A stretch of 64,000 nucleotides of DNA from Flavisolibacter longurius (GTDB lineage Bacteria > Bacteroidota > Bacteroidia > Chitinophagales > Chitinophagaceae). A program made the position numbers and the translations under genes. The DNA is taken from the NCBI GenBank assembly GCA_013327885.1, contig JABUMY010000002.1, positions 186,001 through 250,000 of the forward strand. Direction: 5' to 3'. Positions 1,446-9,176 of the stretch are shown in pieces (position 1 is the first letter of the stretch; each line of letters begins with the position of its first letter). The notes under the pieces are model-generated. The model had not been told where the DNA came from and did not search any database. It worked only from the letters and a program-made list of their open reading frames with translations.

Positions 1446-1874
1446 TTATTGCAAGCTCTCGTTACCAATGCCGGAGCAAAGGGTATAAAAATCACTGGCG
1501 GTTTTGATGGAATCCCTGTACGAGGAAGGCTTGATGATATAGGCATGGGCACCCAGGGCCATGCACTCTTCTTTTTCCCGCGGGTTCAGCGACGTGGAAT
1601 AAATAATCACCGGTATCTCTTTCAGCGCAGCGTTGCTTTTGATGTGTTTCAGAGTTTGCTTGCCGTTAAGCCGCGGCATGTTCAGGTCAAGGATGATGGC
1701 TTTCGGCAGTTGGTTTTCTTCCACGCAGCGCTGCAGGTATTGCACGGCCGCCTCACCGTTTTCCTCGTAATGCAAACAAGAGCGGTAACCCAGTTCGTCA
1801 AAGGCATCGCTCAGGAGCATCCAATCCTCTTCGTCATCATCCACCATCAAAATGGATACGCTGTTTTCTTTCAT
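1446..1874 (-). CDS. Single-domain response regulator (stressosome operon output)
   Basis: A 142-residue receiver domain with no output domain. Acidic pocket residues are in MVDDDEEDW (11-17), the predicted phospho-acceptor is Asp63 in ILDLNMP, the switch Ser/Thr is in YSTS, and the Lys is in IIKPSS. This resembles Rcp1/CheY-type regulators paired with phytochrome-like kinases. I start at the ATG at 1874 because it overlaps the upstream kinase stop as ATGA (1871-1874) and because a longer frame upstream runs through the kinase. It is the last gene of the six-gene operon, so it is probably the phosphorylation sink for that kinase. How it acts downstream cannot be read from the sequence. Confidence 0.9.
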   Translation of the reverse strand: MKENSVSILMVDDDEEDWMLLSDAFDELGYRSCLHYEENGEAAVQYLQRCVEENQLPKAIILDLNMPRLNGKQTLKHIKSNAALKEIPVIIYSTSLNPREKEECMALGAHAYIIKPSSYRDSIKTASDFYTLCSGIGNESLQ

Positions 1875-3517
1875 TCGCTTTTTGATTGCGTAACCGGCAA
1901 AGTAACAATAAATGTTGAACCCGCACCAACCTTGCTGCGGGCTGTAATGTTGCCCTGGTGCAAAGCAACAATTTTCTGGCAAATGGCCAATCCCAGGCCG
2001 GTACCCGTGTATTTTCCCGAAGCATGCAGCCGCTGGAAAAGCGTAAACATCTGCGGCAGGTATTTTTCATCAAAGCCAATACCGTTGTCCTCCACATGAA
2101 TGCGAATGACGTTGTCCTCCTGCCCGGCCCAGATCTTCACAACCGGCTTTTCGTCTTCCCTGGCATATTTAATGGCATTGCTCAGCAGGTTTTCAAACAA
2201 CTGGTGCAGCATGCCCGCATCGGCCTCAATCAGGGGCATGGGCTCAATGTGCACCTGCGCCCCTTTTTCTTCAATGCTCATCTCCAGGTCCTGCAGCACT
2301 TCGTGGGTTACCTGGTTCAGGTTGATATGTTTCAGCTTCAGGCCTTCCCGCTCTACCTGGGCAAAGGCCAGCAGATCGTTGATAAGGGTGCGCATCCGCC
2401 GCGAGGCCGACTGCATGTTGTGCAGGTAGTCGAGGCCTTTTTCATCCAGCACGTCTTCGTACTTCGAGATCAGGAAGTCGCTGTAGAAGCTGAGCTTACG
2501 GGCCGGTTCCTGCAGGTCGTGCGAAGCCACGTAGGCAAATTCCTGCAGTTCGCGGTTGCTGCGGTTTAGCTCTGTAATGTTCTTTTCCAGGGCTGCCTGT
2601 TGCTGTTTTAGGCGCTCCTGGGTTTCTTTCAGCTCCCGGTTATCCTGCAAGGTTTCTTCCACTACTTTTTGCGCATTGATGTCAACAATGTAGCCCGTCC
2701 AGTACAGCAGCTTTCCTGCCTCATCGTTCAGCGGCGAAATGGACGCCAGGTGCCAGTAATATTCTTTTTCGCTCCTATGGCGAAGACGGCACTGGGTTTT
2801 AATAACAGAGGCGCCCAGCGGCAGGTGCGGGTTGATGAGGATCGAAAAGGCATCGTAGTCATCGGGGTGCACCACGTCTTTCCACCGCGATTTATTGAGT
2901 TGCTCGATGCTATTGCCGGTAAAGCGGCGAAGCCAATCGTTGGCGTAAATCAGTTCTCCTTTTTTGTCGAGCGAAAAAATAATCAGGGGCAGCGCATTGG
3001 TGAGGGTGGTGTGCTGGTTCTCGCTTTCTTTCAAGCGCTGGGTGAGGTCCTGCAACTGCTCATTGTTGCGCTTGATCGCTTCGTAGGGTGAGATGGCCGG
3101 TTCGTTGCGAAAAATGCCCCGCCATTCATCCAGTTTTTGCACATCGATGCGGATGCTGCCCGGTATCCGGAAATAAAGTTCGATAGAGGTTTCTTTACCC
3201 GAAGTGGAAATATTGTACTTGCTCACAAGGCGCTTGGCATAGGCAAGGCCTTCGTTCTCCCCGCCGCCCTGGTCGTCATCGGAAATGCGGGCAACCAGGT
3301 ATTTTTCGCGGCTTGCATTGGAAACCTGGAGGATAAGGCAGCCGTTCTTTCCGTGCTCGATGGTGCTCCGCGCCACTTCCGATACGGCTGTGGCAAACGT
3401 GGTTTGCGCCGGCAGCGAAAGCCCGGCCAGTTCGGCCAGGCGCATGCTGCGCCGGTGGGCCAGTATCAGGTCCATTTCGTTTTGCAATGTTACCCTTGCT
3501 AGTTCCTCCATCTTCAT
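1871..3517 (-). CDS. PAS-domain histidine kinase with N-terminal RsbW-like ATPase-fold domain
   Basis: This 548-residue protein has no membrane segment, so it should be cytosolic. Residues 1-115 resemble the small GHKL switch-kinase fold of RsbW/RsbT (ATAVSEVARSTIEHG as N-box-like helix, ARISDDDQGG as G1-like box). Residues about 165-290 are a PAS domain (FSLDKKGELIYAND, with a PAC-like end YIVDINAQKVVEE). Next come a coiled coil (290-325) and a HisKA dimerisation helix with His333 in ASHDLQEPARKL. The HATPase domain has DNGIGFD and GTGLGLAICQKIV near the C-terminus. Overlaps of 4 bp with both neighbours (ATGA) indicate translational coupling. The phytochrome-type HisKA and a CheY-like partner fit a phosphorelay output for the stressosome. 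Domain placement is by eye. Confidence 0.9.
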   Translation of the reverse strand: MKMEELARVTLQNEMDLILAHRRSMRLAELAGLSLPAQTTFATAVSEVARSTIEHGKNGCLILQVSNASREKYLVARISDDDQGGGENEGLAYAKRLVSKYNISTSGKETSIELYFRIPGSIRIDVQKLDEWRGIFRNEPAISPYEAIKRNNEQLQDLTQRLKESENQHTTLTNALPLIIFSLDKKGELIYANDWLRRFTGNSIEQLNKSRWKDVVHPDDYDAFSILINPHLPLGASVIKTQCRLRHRSEKEYYWHLASISPLNDEAGKLLYWTGYIVDINAQKVVEETLQDNRELKETQERLKQQQAALEKNITELNRSNRELQEFAYVASHDLQEPARKLSFYSDFLISKYEDVLDEKGLDYLHNMQSASRRMRTLINDLLAFAQVEREGLKLKHINLNQVTHEVLQDLEMSIEEKGAQVHIEPMPLIEADAGMLHQLFENLLSNAIKYAREDEKPVVKIWAGQEDNVIRIHVEDNGIGFDEKYLPQMFTLFQRLHASGKYTGTGLGLAICQKIVALHQGNITARSKVGAGSTFIVTLPVTQSKSE

Positions 3518-4533
3518 ACATTCAGTTTACAGCTTGCAATAGACATGTCGTCCGTATTGCGTGCATATTCCTTGAAAATCGATGCTGCCAGCAGCGACAG
3601 GTCGTGGCGCATAATGCCGGGAAACTTCAGGGTATCCCATTTTGATTTAATGCCATCGCTGCAGAGCACAATGCACTGCCCGCGTTCGTAACCCACTTCC
3701 TGGTCGTTCATCGAATTGGGCATGTTCAGCCCGATAATACCGTTGTAAGGGCTGTGGCTTTTGGCACTGACAGGCCCAAAAAAACGGGTGCTGATATTGC
3801 CCACACCGCAGATGGTCCATTTTTGCTCGGCCAGGTGAAAAATGGCCACGGTTCCCACCAGCCCCCGGGTGCGTTTTACCGACTGGTGAATAAAGCGGAG
3901 GGTTTCCACCGCGCTGGTTTCGGGGCACACCTGGAAAGCCTCGATAGCTTTTTGCACCGCATGGGCGGCTTCTTTGCCATGACCCAGCCCATCGCCCAGG
4001 AAAAGCCGGATGTGTTCTTTTGATTTTTTGTAATAAAAGCTATCGCCGCATTCCACTTCGCCTGGCTTGGGCACCACAAAAGAGCGGATCTCCACGCCGT
4101 CGTCCTGCTGCCTGGCTACGGGTGGGTCTTTTACAAACACACGGCAAAGCAAAATGGTACCCCATCCTTTTTGGGTGTACACCTGGAAAAGGTGCGAAAG
4201 CCGCCGGATGGCGCCCAGTCCCTGTCCCAGCGTGTTTTTGGTGGTAGCGCCGTCCTGCATCATGGCCCGCAGGTCGCTGATGCCCGGGCCCGCGTCCATA
4301 GAAATGATCTCGATCCCCTGGAGTCCCTTTTCTTCAACGAGCTTGACAAACAACTCGCCGCCACCGGCATGCTTGGCAAGGTTAGTTACCATTTCGGCAA
4401 CGATGATGTCAATTTCAGCCAGCCGGCGTGCACTGAAATGCGCCGATGCGGCCAGGGCATGCACTTCTTTTTTCAAAATGGCAAAATAGCTTCGGTCGGC
4501 TGCGTTTAACCGAAAGTGCACGGCATTAACCAT
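3514..4533 (-). CDS. RsbT-like ATPase domain fused to SpoIIE/RsbX-type PP2C phosphatase
   Basis: A 339-residue cytosolic fusion. Residues 1-135 form a GHKL switch-kinase-like domain with N-box EMVTNLAKHAGGG, G1 box MDAGPGI and G2 GQGLGAIRRL. Residues about 150-335 form a PP2C-type phosphatase of the SpoIIE/RsbX class with metal-binding aspartates in ECGDS (Asp164) and GDGLGHG (Asp181) and a late CSDGI motif. In Bacillus, RsbX dephosphorylates RsbS and RsbR to reset the stressosome. The position directly after rsbT, with an 8-bp overlap, supports the same role here. The upstream start ATG gives MVNAVHFRLN. The fusion of a switch-kinase-like domain to the phosphatase differs from Bacillus RsbX, which is phosphatase only. 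Confidence 0.88.
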   Translation of the reverse strand: MVNAVHFRLNAADRSYFAILKKEVHALAASAHFSARRLAEIDIIVAEMVTNLAKHAGGGELFVKLVEEKGLQGIEIISMDAGPGISDLRAMMQDGATTKNTLGQGLGAIRRLSHLFQVYTQKGWGTILLCRVFVKDPPVARQQDDGVEIRSFVVPKPGEVECGDSFYYKKSKEHIRLFLGDGLGHGKEAAHAVQKAIEAFQVCPETSAVETLRFIHQSVKRTRGLVGTVAIFHLAEQKWTICGVGNISTRFFGPVSAKSHSPYNGIIGLNMPNSMNDQEVGYERGQCIVLCSDGIKSKWDTLKFPGIMRHDLSLLAASIFKEYARNTDDMSIASCKLNV

Positions 4534-4939
4534 TCTTCCATTTTATAACGGTTACCGTGGTGCCTTTGCCGGGAACGCTCTTCAGGTCAAATTCGCTTAC
4601 CAACCGCTTGGCGCCGGGAAGCCCAAGTCCCAAACTTTTGCCGGTGGAGAAGCCGTCTTTCATGGCCAGCGAAATATCTTTTATACCCGGTCCTTTGTCT
4701 TGAAATACAAGGCGTACACCGTTCTCGCGGCCTTTGCTCACCACTTCGATAAGGGCGGTGCCGCCGCCGGCGTATTTAAGCATGTTGCGGACAAGTTCGG
4801 AGGCAGCCGTGATCAGTTTTGTCTGGTTCACCAGGCTCATGCCGATCTTTACGGCATATTCTTTCACCCGGTTACGAAACGGTACCACGTCCTGCTCTTT
4901 TTGAATGAGGAAACTGTCTTTATTCAGTACCACTATCAT
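4526..4939 (-). CDS. rsbT: Stressosome switch serine/threonine kinase RsbT
   Basis: A 137-residue GHKL-fold protein kinase. The N-box is SELVRNMLKYAGGG, the G1 box is DKGPGIKDI and the G2 region is GKSLGLGLPGAKRLV. The length matches RsbT of Bacillus (about 133). In that system RsbT phosphorylates RsbS and RsbR and, once released, engages the downstream partner RsbU. No RsbU is present here. The ATG at 4939 (MIVVLNKDSF) is chosen over a start nine codons upstream because it matches the family N-terminus and overlaps the rsbS 3' end by 20 bp. Confidence 0.92.
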   Translation of the reverse strand: MIVVLNKDSFLIQKEQDVVPFRNRVKEYAVKIGMSLVNQTKLITAASELVRNMLKYAGGGTALIEVVSKGRENGVRLVFQDKGPGIKDISLAMKDGFSTGKSLGLGLPGAKRLVSEFDLKSVPGKGTTVTVIKWKNG

Positions 4940-5324
4940 CGTGTTCTTCCTCCTCAAGCTGTTCAAAAGAACCGATTTTTTGTTGTAACAAAGCCATGCC
5001 TTTTTCTACGTTTAGTGCCGTGCTCACACCCCGCAATTCCAGTCCCAGTTCAATCAGCGTGATGGCCACGGCAGGCTGCATGCCCACCACCACGGTTTCG
5101 GCGTCCATGATCTTGCTCATGCTGCCAATGTTGCCAATGATGCGGCCCATAAACGAATCCACGATCGACAGGGCGGAAATATCAATTAAAACACCCCTGG
5201 CACCGGTCTTACTCACCATTTGCACAAGGTCACTTTCCAGGTTTAATGCCAGACGGTCGTACAGGTCTACCTGGATGGTCACCAGGAGAAATTTACCCAT
5301 CTGCAAAATTGGTATTCTGTCCAT
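4920..5324 (-). CDS. rsbS: Stressosome core STAS protein RsbS
   Basis: A 134-residue single STAS domain. MDRIPILQMGKFLLVTIQVD is the typical RsbS first strand, followed by GVLIDISALSIVDSFMGRII. The Ser in DISALSIVDSF sits where RsbS is phosphorylated by RsbT. The protein ends with an acidic tail, EEEEHDDSGTE, longer than in Bacillus RsbS. The ATG at 5324 lies 5 bp after the rsbR stop. RsbS and RsbR co-assemble into the stressosome shell in characterised systems. Confidence 0.93.
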   Translation of the reverse strand: MDRIPILQMGKFLLVTIQVDLYDRLALNLESDLVQMVSKTGARGVLIDISALSIVDSFMGRIIGNIGSMSKIMDAETVVVGMQPAVAITLIELGLELRGVSTALNVEKGMALLQQKIGSFEQLEEEEHDDSGTE

Positions 5325-5329
5325 AGAGG

Positions 5330-6196
5330 TTAAAAGCTGGTTTTTTGTCTTGCTGTTCTTTTTACTTCCAGGTGGGTCATTACAAAAGCATGCTGCAAGG
5401 CACTGGCCAGGGAAGCTTTGGTAATGATGTTGGACAGGTCGATGCCCAGGTGCACTACCGTTTGGGCAATTTCGGGACGAATGCCGCTGATAATACACTC
5501 GGCACCCATCAGCCTGGTGGCACTAACGGTCTTGATCAGGTGTTGCGCCACCAGCGAATCCACGGCGGGCACACCGGAAATATCCAAAATAGCGATGCTG
5601 CTGCCGGTTTCCACGATCTGCTGCAGCAGGTTTTCCATCACTACCTGTGTACGGGCACTGTCGAGGGTGCCAATAATGGGCAGGGCCAGGATGCCTTCCC
5701 ATACACGGATCACCGGTGTGGAGATCTCCGCGATCTCGTCGGTTTGCCGGAGGATCACTTCTTCACGGCCTTTGATAAAGGTTTCAAAAGTGACAATGCC
5801 AAAGGAGTCGATCAGCTTACTGATCTTGATGCTGACGGTGTACAGCGTAACGGGATCATTTTTAATCTCATCCTGCAGCACCTGCAGCAGGGCATCCTTC
5901 AGGCTGAACACGTAGGCACCGGTTTCGCGGGGCGAAAAACCCTGGCGTGCCCGGGTGATGGAAATGCCCGAAAGAATTTCCAGCACCGGCTCAAAGTCGG
6001 CAGAGCGACCATCGTTGATGTTTTGGTCGTTGAGCGTTTTTACCAGGATGTCCAGCAGCTCTTCCGACTGCACCCGTAACTCTTCGTTGCTCATCAGGTC
6101 ATCCCGCAGGCTTTCGTCGTTCAGCTGGTTATTCATCCAGCGTTCTAGCAGTTGCTTTCTTCTTTTCTGAAGTAATTTGGAGATGTCTACTTTCAT
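5330..6196 (-). CDS. rsbR: Stressosome sensor/co-antagonist RsbR (RsbRD-type N-terminus plus STAS)
   Basis: A 288-residue protein. Residues 1-150 are helical and resemble the RsbRD/RsbU-type N-terminal domain (KLLQKRRKQLLERWMNNQL), the likely signal-sensing turret. Residues 165-275 form a STAS domain with ILDISGVPAVDSLVA and ISGIRPEIAQTVVHLGID. The phosphorylatable position in the first motif is Ser where Bacillus RsbR has Thr, and the second is Thr in AQT. It has no haem or flavin motif that I can identify, so the signal is unknown. It is the first gene of the operon. The 212-bp region upstream (6197-6408) holds a TACATTTA sequence that could be a weak -7 box on the minus strand. Confidence 0.93.
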   Translation of the reverse strand: MKVDISKLLQKRRKQLLERWMNNQLNDESLRDDLMSNEELRVQSEELLDILVKTLNDQNINDGRSADFEPVLEILSGISITRARQGFSPRETGAYVFSLKDALLQVLQDEIKNDPVTLYTVSIKISKLIDSFGIVTFETFIKGREEVILRQTDEIAEISTPVIRVWEGILALPIIGTLDSARTQVVMENLLQQIVETGSSIAILDISGVPAVDSLVAQHLIKTVSATRLMGAECIISGIRPEIAQTVVHLGIDLSNIITKASLASALQHAFVMTHLEVKRTARQKTSF

Positions 6197-6408: not shown

Positions 6409-7014
6409 TTACAATAACCGACGCACGTTTGTCTTGTACAAGCGGTAGGTTTCGCCGTGCTGTGCCAACAGGAAAGCTTCTTCCAATCGTATCTGCACCT
6501 GGATGAGAATATAGCTTCCGGCCAAAACCACCAGTGTTACGGTATTGGGCAGTACGAGGAAAATTCCCAGCAGGCTAAAAAGCATGCCCAGGAAAACGGG
6601 GTTGCGGGTAAGGGCAAAAACACCCCTTGTCACCAGGGCTGTTTTGTGCCTTTCGTCGATGCCAATGCGCCAGGAACTGCGCATGTTGTACTGCGCCAGC
6701 ATGATCCACAAAAGCGACAGGTGGGCCAGCAGGAGGCCCGCCACCTGTAAGCCCCTGTGCTGTAAAAACGCCACCGGCGACGTATAACGATAGCCTTCCG
6801 GCCAAACCGAAAACAGGAGCACTGCTGCCACCAGCAGGCCGGTGACCACTTTCATCAGCCGGCCGATGTAGTCGTGTGCATTGTCGCTTTTGCCAAAGGT
6901 TACCGGGTTGATGCGGGTTTGCCGGTACACGCGGTAACTGGGAAGCACAAACGTAAACAGGAGGTAAAGCAGGAGAAAGAGGGGCAGGTACCACCGCAGT
7001 GTTTCTGTACTCAT
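6409..7014 (-). CDS. Isoprenylcysteine carboxyl methyltransferase-like membrane protein
   Basis: A 201-residue protein with about five membrane segments. The C-terminal half carries the signature of the ICMT/phospholipid methyltransferase superfamily: RIGIDERHKTALVTRGVF, LTRNPVFLGM, and RLEEAFLLAQHGETYRLY near the end, which form the SAM-binding region. Bacterial members are often found beside metal-homeostasis genes and their substrate is mostly unknown. Its ATG overlaps the stop of the TonB receptor by 4 bp (7011-7014), so the two are co-translated. It probably modifies a lipid or small molecule in the inner membrane. Confidence 0.8.
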   Translation of the reverse strand: MSTETLRWYLPLFLLLYLLFTFVLPSYRVYRQTRINPVTFGKSDNAHDYIGRLMKVVTGLLVAAVLLFSVWPEGYRYTSPVAFLQHRGLQVAGLLLAHLSLLWIMLAQYNMRSSWRIGIDERHKTALVTRGVFALTRNPVFLGMLFSLLGIFLVLPNTVTLVVLAGSYILIQVQIRLEEAFLLAQHGETYRLYKTNVRRLL

Positions 7015-9176
7015 AAGCGAATTTTTATCCCGCCGTTCACCACGAAGCCTTCCACCGGTGCATAGATGTCGCGGAAGACCGGCGTGTCGATGGAGCCGGT
7101 ATAAATGGTATCGAATTTTGACTGGCGGGTGTCGGTAAAGTTTTCAAAATTGAGAAAGACCGAAAATTTTTCCCAGAGCTTTTCCGCCATAAAACCAGTA
7201 ATCCAGTACGGCTTTCCAAACGAGCCGTCGCCAAGCCGCTGGCGGCTGAAGTAATAGGCTTCCAGTCCCAGTTTTAGCTTGTCTTCAATTTCATACATCA
7301 ATACAATGTTCAGCCGGTGACGGGCCGTAAGCGGCAACCAGGCTTTTACCCCTGCATAATGGGTGTTGGCATCGGTATAGGTATAGCCAACAAACAATTT
7401 GAAGTGGCCATAGAGCAGGCGCAGGTTGGTTTCTGTTCCCCGCGTATCCAGGTGCCCGGCTACATTGAGAAAATCCGTCTTGCCGCCCGGTGCACCAACC
7501 AGCACCAGCGGCCTGTTTAAACGGGTGTAGAAAAAAAGGTGGTTGATGCTTAGTCCCAGGGCACCGATCCTTGTTTGGTAGTTGATGTCCCAGTTGCCGC
7601 CAAGCGATCGTTCGTTTTGCGTCCGGTCGATCGCAATGGGTAGGATGTTCCGAAACTGGATGCGTTCGGCTTCTTCTGTGAACATTGTTGGCGTTTTGTA
7701 CCCAAACCCGCCACCGATCCGTGTGGTCAGCCGGGGAGAAACCCGGAACAGGGCCGAGACCCGCGGCAGAATCGCAAGACCATACTCGCTTACATAATCG
7801 CCTCGCAGGCCGGCTTCCATTGTAACCGTTTGGGAGGCCGACCAAGTGTTTTGCACAAATACACCAAGGGTATTGTAATGATAGTTGCGCAAAGGCGCAG
7901 GGCTGGCCTTGTCTTCTGCCAGGTCATCGGTAACCAAGTTAGCGCCAAGGATCCATTGCGACCGTTCCCGGTTATGGTTCCACGTTAGTTCGGTAAACGA
8001 CGACTGCTGCCTGGCATCGAAGCGATAAGCCGGAATACCGATACGCCGGTCAAACGAACTGAAACTGTTTTTCAATTGCAGCGTAGAACGGCTATCCAGT
8101 TGGTGGGTGATACCCAGTTGCGTGGTGATGCGATCGGTGTTGTTCTTTTCAAAAAAGCCACTGCCACCGTTCTCAATATAAGCCATGTTACCGCCAATAC
8201 GGTCCTCTGTAATAAAGCTTACGCCGAAATCGGCCGCGGTGTTTTTACCATAAAGAAAAAGGCGGGGATTGATGGTGTAGCGTTCCGCTTTAGGAATGGC
8301 GGTAAGCCCAATGCCGCCCGGGTCGAAAGGCGCCGTGCTGTTGCGGGCTGCATACACGGTGAGGCCGGCGCTTCCGTAGCGTTCACTGTAAAAGCCGCTG
8401 AGGTCAAGCCCGCCGGCAGAAGTTGCGTTGGCCAAAAAGTTCAGTTCTCTCTCCTCACCCGGTGTTTTTGACACCAGGTTTACTAAGCCTGCAATGGCTC
8501 CGCCGCCATAAAGCGTGGAGGCCGAGCCCTTGATTACCTCAACCTGCCGCAGGTCGAGCGGGGCGATTTGCAAAATGCTTAACCCACCCGAAAAGCCGGC
8601 GTACAGGGGATAGCCATCGCGAAGGAGCTGGGTGTAGCGGCCCTCCAGCCCCTGGATGCGGATGCCGGCATTGTAAGAAGTGGCGGAGGTTTGCTGGGTT
8701 TGAATGCCCGTGCTTTCGTTTAGCAGCATGCGAATGTCACCGGGTTTCATGTTGCCTTTTTCGGCCAACTCTTCACCGGAGATCACTTCAATGCGGGTAG
8801 GCGTGTTGGCGATGGTGCGGCTGGTGCGGGTAGCCCTTACCACCACTTCTTCTTCGTGTTCGTGTTCCGCTTCTTCCGCATCCAGGGTGATGACGATCGT
8901 TGTATCGGCAGCAAGCGGAAACAGCAGGGAGAGGGTGGCTTCTTCGTAACCCACATGTGTAATGGAAAAGGTTTGGGTTCCGGCGGGAATACCGGCCATG
9001 CTTACACGGCCGGCGTCGTCTGCAAGGGCGGCGCGGCCCCCTTCCTTCCAGGTGAGGGTCGCACCCGGGAGCGCTTCGGCCTCCCCATTTTGAATGGCAG
9101 CCCGAAGGGTTGATTGTGCCTGTACTGCCACAAAGGCGCAGCACAGGAAAAGTCCTGTTAGCAGGTATTTCATCAT
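7011..9176 (-). CDS. TonB-dependent outer-membrane receptor
   Basis: This 721-residue protein has a signal peptide (MMKYLLTGLFLCCAFVAVQA), a carboxypeptidase-regulatory-like beta-sandwich domain (about 22-100) and an acidic, His-rich linker, EEAEHEHEEE (about 103-112). A plug domain follows (about 118-235; VISGEELAEKG, VEVIKGSASTLYGGGAIAG), then a 22-strand-type barrel ending in GIKIRL. The overall type is that of siderophore/metal receptors rather than SusC, since there is no SusD partner. The His/Glu-rich linker, the DUF6660 gene upstream and the methyltransferase downstream suggest metal or metallophore transport. The substrate is inferred, not shown. Confidence 0.92.
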   Translation of the reverse strand: MMKYLLTGLFLCCAFVAVQAQSTLRAAIQNGEAEALPGATLTWKEGGRAALADDAGRVSMAGIPAGTQTFSITHVGYEEATLSLLFPLAADTTIVITLDAEEAEHEHEEEVVVRATRTSRTIANTPTRIEVISGEELAEKGNMKPGDIRMLLNESTGIQTQQTSATSYNAGIRIQGLEGRYTQLLRDGYPLYAGFSGGLSILQIAPLDLRQVEVIKGSASTLYGGGAIAGLVNLVSKTPGEERELNFLANATSAGGLDLSGFYSERYGSAGLTVYAARNSTAPFDPGGIGLTAIPKAERYTINPRLFLYGKNTAADFGVSFITEDRIGGNMAYIENGGSGFFEKNNTDRITTQLGITHQLDSRSTLQLKNSFSSFDRRIGIPAYRFDARQQSSFTELTWNHNRERSQWILGANLVTDDLAEDKASPAPLRNYHYNTLGVFVQNTWSASQTVTMEAGLRGDYVSEYGLAILPRVSALFRVSPRLTTRIGGGFGYKTPTMFTEEAERIQFRNILPIAIDRTQNERSLGGNWDINYQTRIGALGLSINHLFFYTRLNRPLVLVGAPGGKTDFLNVAGHLDTRGTETNLRLLYGHFKLFVGYTYTDANTHYAGVKAWLPLTARHRLNIVLMYEIEDKLKLGLEAYYFSRQRLGDGSFGKPYWITGFMAEKLWEKFSVFLNFENFTDTRQSKFDTIYTGSIDTPVFRDIYAPVEGFVVNGGIKIRL

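Follow-up and report, generated by a model that had tools for sequence, protein, structure and literature searches.

How a stressosome drives its output where no sigma-B cascade is linked to it is the question raised by a six-gene operon of Flavisolibacter longurius (Chitinophagaceae). The operon lies on the minus strand (6196 to 1446) of the window, i.e., the whole stretch of 64,000 nucleotides (nt) analysed here (GCA_013327885.1, contig JABUMY010000002.1, positions 186,001–250,000 of the forward strand), and comprises rsbR, rsbS, rsbT, a phosphatase gene (X), a histidine kinase gene and a response regulator gene. Open reading frames (ORFs) and Pfam matches over cut-off confirmed all six genes at the span 1446–6196 given in an initial annotation of this DNA, including the ATPase-domain/SpoIIE fusion after RsbT (HATPase_c_2 and SpoIIE in X) and the PAS histidine kinase with its CheY-like regulator (PAS, HisKA and HATPase_c, followed by Response_reg). 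The wiring of stressosomes to two-component systems is already known: stressosome modules with other outputs exist, as the annotation had noted, and a two-component output without sigma-B is in print (PMC9237108; this and the other papers cited by PMC number are represented here by excerpts). What the annotation overlooked are the ~120 N-terminal residues of the kinase, which form a degenerate RsbT-like domain (HKn), most plausibly the link between the stressosome and the kinase.

The N-terminal domain of the output kinase

The first match of the kinase N-terminus to RsbT had an E-value of 1.4e-4, and comparison with hhalign gave 97.3%, then 98.7%, for homology of HKn to RsbT. As HKn had no match in Pfam (including HATPase_c_2, E ≤ 1) or in PDB sequence searches, its homology rests on profiles and on the fold, which is that of the RsbT/RsbW/SpoIIAB family. 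An alignment of 81 kinases shows two nearly invariant stretches in HKn, helix 1 (NEMDL...) and the N-box helix (FATAVSE), and E47 and R50 are each kept in 80. The N-box Asn (N51) was found in only 26 of the 81 kinases and was absent from 55 (Ser in the window copy), and the first glycine box (DxGxG) was found in only two (L133 and the window copy, DQGGG). The rows aligned with RsbT, L075 excepted, also lack the lid that leads to the second glycine box. Judged by eye, L075 (genome G161) was the only row of this alignment (A1) with the complete set of nucleotide motifs. HKn does not combine N-box Asn, DxGxG and glycine lid in the way that marks RsbT, RsbW and SpoIIAB as enzymes; it shares the fold of the switch kinases RsbW, SpoIIAB and UsfX, but mostly lacks these three elements and is fused to a histidine kinase. 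Arg20 of SpoIIAB, a partner-contact residue, faces R22 of RsbT (R in 72/80) if the alignment is extended by three residues without gaps, and its counterpart in HKn is H21 (H in 76/81).

Behind HKn, the motif SPYEEIKRKN.QL (Y145 in 81/81, N152 in 79/81) stands at the start of a helix (residues 144–175) that reaches the PAS domain, and a second helix (280–353) joins PAS to HisKA. Both helices were taken from a full-length kinase model (mean predicted local distance difference test, pLDDT, 80.5; predicted template modelling score, pTM, 0.41), of which, given the pTM, only helices were used and the placement of domains was disregarded. Similar linkers were recognised by eye in other phyla. Nine of 80 named loci (defined below) encode short kinases of 398–430 amino acids (aa) with HisKA and HATPase_c, and PAS was absent from all nine when scanned; in the short kinase of Mucilaginibacter (L152, 399 aa) the linker leads directly into the HisKA histidine. 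Two further kinases (L098, L150) are split over two frames, possibly by a frameshift or as decaying copies; they were kept as they are and are not among the nine. The phospho-acceptor H333 was kept in 81/81 kinases and N443, N447, D477, G479 and G481 in 79/81, the remaining two being gaps, and the regulators had the acceptor Asp in 57/57 and the Lys in 55/57. With these H, N and G boxes, Asp and Lys, kinase and regulator have the sequence hallmarks of a two-component pair.

Judged by Pfam and motif columns, the stressosome module (R, S, T and X) is complete and its motifs are intact, the architecture and conserved phospho-site motifs of RsbR and RsbS being those of a stressosome of the RSTX type. 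In RsbR, S214 (VDS motif) was kept in 75/77 and T246 (RPEIAQT) in 76/77 rows, and in RsbS the serine of IVDSFMGR (S57) in 79/79; the phosphorylated residue within these motifs was assigned from Bacillus and is presumably the same here. RsbT retains its GHKL nucleotide motifs (N52, D81, G83 and G85 in 80/80; G104, G106 and G109 in 80/80). The N-domain of X likewise keeps its nucleotide motifs (N51 in 79/80, with one gap; G103/G105/G107 in 80/80), and the PP2C metal-binding aspartates D181, D293, D328 and D329, as well as D164, were present in 80/80. The RsbRSTUVW-SigB-RsbX system of Bacillus subtilis likewise has R, S, T and a feedback phosphatase of the PP2C type, and differs in its RsbU, RsbV, RsbW and SigB, none of which is linked to the window operon.

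Table 1 Features of the operon, in window coordinates
Feature	Position	Strand	Description
rsbR	5330..6196	-	288 aa, RsbRD_N sensor-like domain and STAS; Pfam PF14361 (E 1.5e-28), PF01740 (E 2e-15)
rsbS	4920..5324	-	134 aa, single STAS; PF01740 (E 4.2e-6)
rsbT	4526..4939	-	137 aa, switch kinase; PF02518/PF13581 (HATPase_c/HATPase_c_2)
X, RsbX-like phosphatase fused to RsbT-like domain	3514..4533	-	339 aa; PF13581 (E 5.9e-8), PF07228 (E 2e-7)
RsbT-like N-domain of X	4132..4533	-	RsbT match (E 3.6e-13)
PP2C/SpoIIE domain of X	3649..4020	-	Pfam match
Histidine kinase	1871..3517	-	548 aa; Pfam PAS, HisKA, HATPase_c
HKn, degenerate RsbT-like domain	3155..3517	-	Kinase residues 1–121; profile and fold comparison
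Linker helix	2993..3088	-	Residues 144–175; SPYEEIKRKN.QL-type motif; helix in model
PAS of kinase	2690..2950	-	PF08447 (E 4.9e-10)
HisKA with phospho-acceptor H333	2348..2548	-	PF00512
HATPase_c catalytic domain of kinase	1889..2221	-	PF02518 (E 2.9e-30)
CheY-like response regulator, single-domain	1446..1874	-	142 aa; PF00072 (E 6e-17)

Conservation among relatives

The loci compared were 80 named loci (the best 80 of 313 relatives, leaning to close kin), 24 loci of the family and seven further loci of the class; 13 of the named loci share the kinase end with 13 of the family loci. The order R-S-T-X-HKn was contiguous in 77/80 named, 23/24 family and 7/7 further class loci. Non-contiguous were L113, whose genome encodes an RsbT of 79% identity together with X on a contig that ends 268 base pairs (bp) past X, and two loci cut by contig ends, L114 (the same locus as L076) and L130. 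The tight tie of the stressosome to a histidine kinase that the initial annotation proposed is thus borne out, but conservation of its exact six-gene order is not: the regulator adjoined in only 51/80 named, 16/24 family and 0/7 further class loci, as scored with a profile built from family regulators by which divergent regulators may be missed, and the nine short kinases have no PAS. As regulator and PAS vary while HKn is kept, the fixed link is the RsbT-like domain, neither the regulator nor the PAS domain.

Overlaps of 4 to 20 bp, described earlier for the whole operon, are found at four of its five junctions (S/T 20 bp, T/X 8 bp, X/kinase 4 bp, kinase/regulator 4 bp), and a 5-bp gap separates rsbR from rsbS. 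The 8-bp T/X overlap recurred in 61/79 scorable named loci, 21/24 family loci and 7/7 class loci, and the coupling is therefore conserved; because ORF starts were set at the first possible start codon, most odd T/X spacings may be artefacts.

Of 244 family genomes, 25 contain RsbT (E ≤ 1e-12), and those with HKn (E ≤ 1e-6) are the same 25, the two family draws being taken as the same set, with which the listed part agrees. The chance of identical genome sets would be ~1e-34 if both were independent, though the genomes are related. In the class draw, HKn was present in 3/247 genomes (the window genome, G262 and G360), and the RsbT search, which covered those three, found RsbT in each. Every HKn genome also searched for RsbT thus contained it.

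Some loci vary the layout of the module. Sediminibacterium roseum (L101) has a tandem R-S-T-R-S-T duplication ahead of one X and kinase, and L056 (9978–11841) has two consecutive rsbR ahead of rsbS, which may place two sensors on a single core. In L155 and L158, a receiver-domain gene precedes rsbR at a distance of 21–28 bp; directly after the kinase, no such gene was found.

RsbT-like and RsbU_N input domains across phyla

In a plasmid collection, RsbT matches (E ≤ 1e-5) occurred in 110 of 72,556 records, and 14 regions from these 110 were examined. At the front of the protein encoded after X, an intact RsbT-like domain was found in Deinococcus (L200, L203; L084 is another D. radiodurans copy), Paraburkholderia (L081, L199), Sphingomonas (L086), Phaeobacter (L198) and Alloyangia (L202), and a degenerate one in Caballeronia (L201) and Streptomyces (L204). 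On the Streptomyces plasmid, the gene after RSTX (6595–7965) joins the degenerate domain to a SpoIIE/PP2C phosphatase. The Stenotrophomonas locus (L205) carries rsbW and sigB annotations.

A further scan covered 22 output proteins from other classes of the phylum, leaving aside L207, which is nearly a duplicate of L192. RsbU_N was present in 18 of them (17 over the cut-off, L192 0.5 bit under), none of them with an N-terminal RsbT-like match. Of the other four, L191 and L206 carry RsbT-like domains that are intact, and L218 and L219 gave weak matches only. Both kinds of input domain together were found in none of the scanned proteins. RsbU_N-histidine kinases have been noted in stressosome operons (PMC12143880), and such outputs (PMC12143880, PMC9237108, and the 18 found here) resemble the window system in being RsbRST-linked kinases, usually with a regulator. 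They differ in their input domain (PF08673, which has no match at the N-terminus of the window kinase at E ≤ 1), in X, which is single-domain (207–263 aa) in 13 of the 18 loci and was not found beside rsbT by profile in five, in HisKA_3, found in all 17 with a recognisable kinase domain (L217 being the one without), and in their regulators of 211–249 aa. In L196, L197, L209, L211 and L213, the gene after rsbT encodes an RsbU_N histidine kinase, and the profile found no X between the two.

In a tree of 70 domains, which left L218, L219 and Vibrio outside, the X rows formed one clade (support 100/99), and the output-domain group (D) fell on one side of a branch (94/62; 96% of bootstrap trees). 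As the Caballeronia and Streptomyces output domains (D1) were long-branch rows, the tree was repeated without them, and group D was recovered again (96/86; 95% of bootstrap trees). RsbT did not form one side of a branch, the RsbT of Phaeobacter and Alloyangia grouping with X. By this topology, the T, X and D domains look like old paralogues kept together.

The closest published counterparts are the Vibrio stressosomes (PMC9237108, PMC10014275, PMC4976288), in which RSTX or RST stands near a two-component output without an RsbU-RsbV-RsbW-SigB cascade, i.e., RSTX with VvD1-VvD2 in V. vulnificus (PMC9237108, PMC10014275) and a CheY-like gene nearby in V. brasiliensis (PMC4976288). Unlike the window system, they have a globin RsbR and a single-domain X, and the V. 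vulnificus output is thought to act on cyclic di-GMP. Heinz et al. 2022 (PMC9237108) described kinase/receiver outputs after RSTX, stated that most of the downstream proteins they considered have no RsbU_N and proposed RsbT-dependent phosphorylation; in the excerpts, VvD1 is said to lack RsbU_N and no other stressosome-input domain is named for it.

The Vibrio D1 compared here came from a plasmid locus (L082) of a related Vibrio, not from V. vulnificus itself. Direct comparisons gave no match (0.2% with RsbT, 0.1% with HKn and 9.0% with the N-domain of X), and a broader Dn profile gave 36–38%. Against a widened RsbT-like profile it reached 89.7% (E 1.9e-6), only after addition of L218 and L219, which are themselves 45–73% matches; none of 232 other N-termini, a set that took in every long reading frame of the loci and hence spurious ones, scored as high. 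The L082 linker resembles that of L218 (17/37 identical, blastp). It is possible to probable, on these comparisons, that L082 D1 carries an RsbT-like domain.

We tentatively propose, with slightly less than even confidence, that stressosomes have a second general output adaptor in RsbT-like domains, live or dead, which are used instead of RsbU_N on kinases of several classes and on a PP2C phosphatase in at least four phyla, and that Vibrio D1 kinases carry a degenerate one, so that D1 would dock on the core rather than receive RsbT. A conserved RsbT-like domain on differing outputs in several phyla would offer a testable answer to how stressosomes reach outputs without RsbU_N, which the excerpts of PMC9237108 leave open. 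Searches of an open-access library turned up no account of a mostly degenerate RsbT-like input domain on a stressosome-linked kinase, of its alternation with RsbU_N or of its occurrence on an output phosphatase, and the excerpts of the papers cited here and of PMC8115616, PMC6848086 and PMC3999984 describe no such domain on a stressosome-linked histidine kinase; prior description in subscription reviews (Pane-Farre and colleagues 2005, 2017) is possible.

How the stressosome may reach the kinase

The kinase is probably a client of the stressosome. What is directly seen in the sequences, i.e., the architecture, the coupling, the decay of the nucleotide site, the retained helices and the shared side of the tree, is best explained overall, and here our confidence is moderate, if the output kinase is a direct client with HKn as docking decoy. 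HKn would be a dead RsbT that binds RsbT's STAS surface on the RsbS/RsbR core and parks the kinase there. Under stress, RsbT would phosphorylate RsbS and RsbR, and RsbT and HKn would be released together, after which the linker helix may order the kinase dimer and alter both its autophosphorylation and phosphotransfer to the regulator. X, targeted by its own RsbT-like domain, would dephosphorylate and reset the core. If so, a pseudo-switch-kinase ties serine/threonine partner switching to histidine-aspartate signalling, and a kinase front that is a worn copy of the sensor's switch protein suggests a route to drive a kinase without its usual relay partner.

Docking of the kinase on the STAS core, as opposed to RsbT, is, taken by itself, evenly balanced. 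Rate covariation was determined over 75 loci as partial correlations with bootstrap ranges. The values for HKn were highest with the catalytic part of the same kinase (0.57) and with X (0.44), followed by S (0.25), T (0.09) and R (0.01), a pattern that leans weakly to the core and away from RsbT. Together with the reported lack of detectable interaction between VvRsbT and VvD1 (PMC9237108), these weak values do not favour direct contact of RsbT with the kinase.

Several points weigh against core docking by HKn and against the adaptor role. The bootstrap ranges of HKn-S (0.12 to 0.34) and HKn-T (-0.01 to 0.26) overlap, RsbT varies little in this test, and covariation of HKn with X may just be co-inheritance or a shared rate. 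In known complexes of RsbW and SpoIIAB, some of the partner contacts are close to the ATP lid, which HKn has lost. The DQGGG stretch of the window HKn resembles a first glycine box, so some nucleotide contact by this copy is possible. In Variovorax (L083) and Xanthomonas (L085), X is fused and the D1 kinases have no RsbT-like domain, so that such an input domain is not obligatory.

Among the alternatives, pairing of RsbT with HKn fares best, although we rate it as rather unlikely. RsbT released from the core would bind HKn, and the linker, as a GHKL pair and so switch the kinase, by analogy with RsbT and RsbU_N in Bacillus. HKn occupies the RsbU_N position with a conserved helix behind it, and the family members SpoIIAB and RsbW dimerise via this fold. 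Binding of RsbT to the N-domain and linker of RsbU activates RsbU, and ordering of the linker has been reported (PMC12143880). Set against this are the VvRsbT-VvD1 result and the low HKn-T value, from a weak test; because rate covariation went against pairing, docking on the core was ranked above it.

HKn may instead be left over from an ancient fusion and now serve as a structural or dimerisation cap, with a kinase that senses via PAS and is merely co-expressed with the stressosome. Its nucleotide site looks lost, and in V. vulnificus the genes of both modules follow the same transcription, with contact unproven in the excerpts of PMC9237108. A mere cap is nevertheless improbable, as the first helix and the N-box helix are among the most conserved columns, some kinases keep HKn without PAS, and RsbT accompanies HKn throughout the genomes searched for both.

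That the stressosome targets a distant sigma factor, with the kinase pair as a side branch, is very improbable: the genome has three region-3 sigma factors, none of them in the window (the search did not extend to ECF, i.e., extracytoplasmic function, sigma factors), as well as a single STAS protein encoded elsewhere than in the operon, but RsbU_N had no match in the whole genome at E ≤ 1, and the only two SpoIIE-family matches (E ≤ 0.001) are X and an ORF that by eye looks like a Stp1-type PP2C beside an FtsW/PBP-like ORF. The absence of an RsbU_N phosphatase, in a search that was over cut-off in 1 of 14 control genomes, speaks against a sigma-B cascade as the output, and, in keeping with the earlier statement on the window, no RsbU, RsbV, RsbW or SigB is linked to the operon. 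The only STAS match outside the operon is a 128-aa ORF (G000:C52:59216–59602; L079 5217–5603, minus strand) divergent from a neighbouring gene that was named clpC-like by eye.

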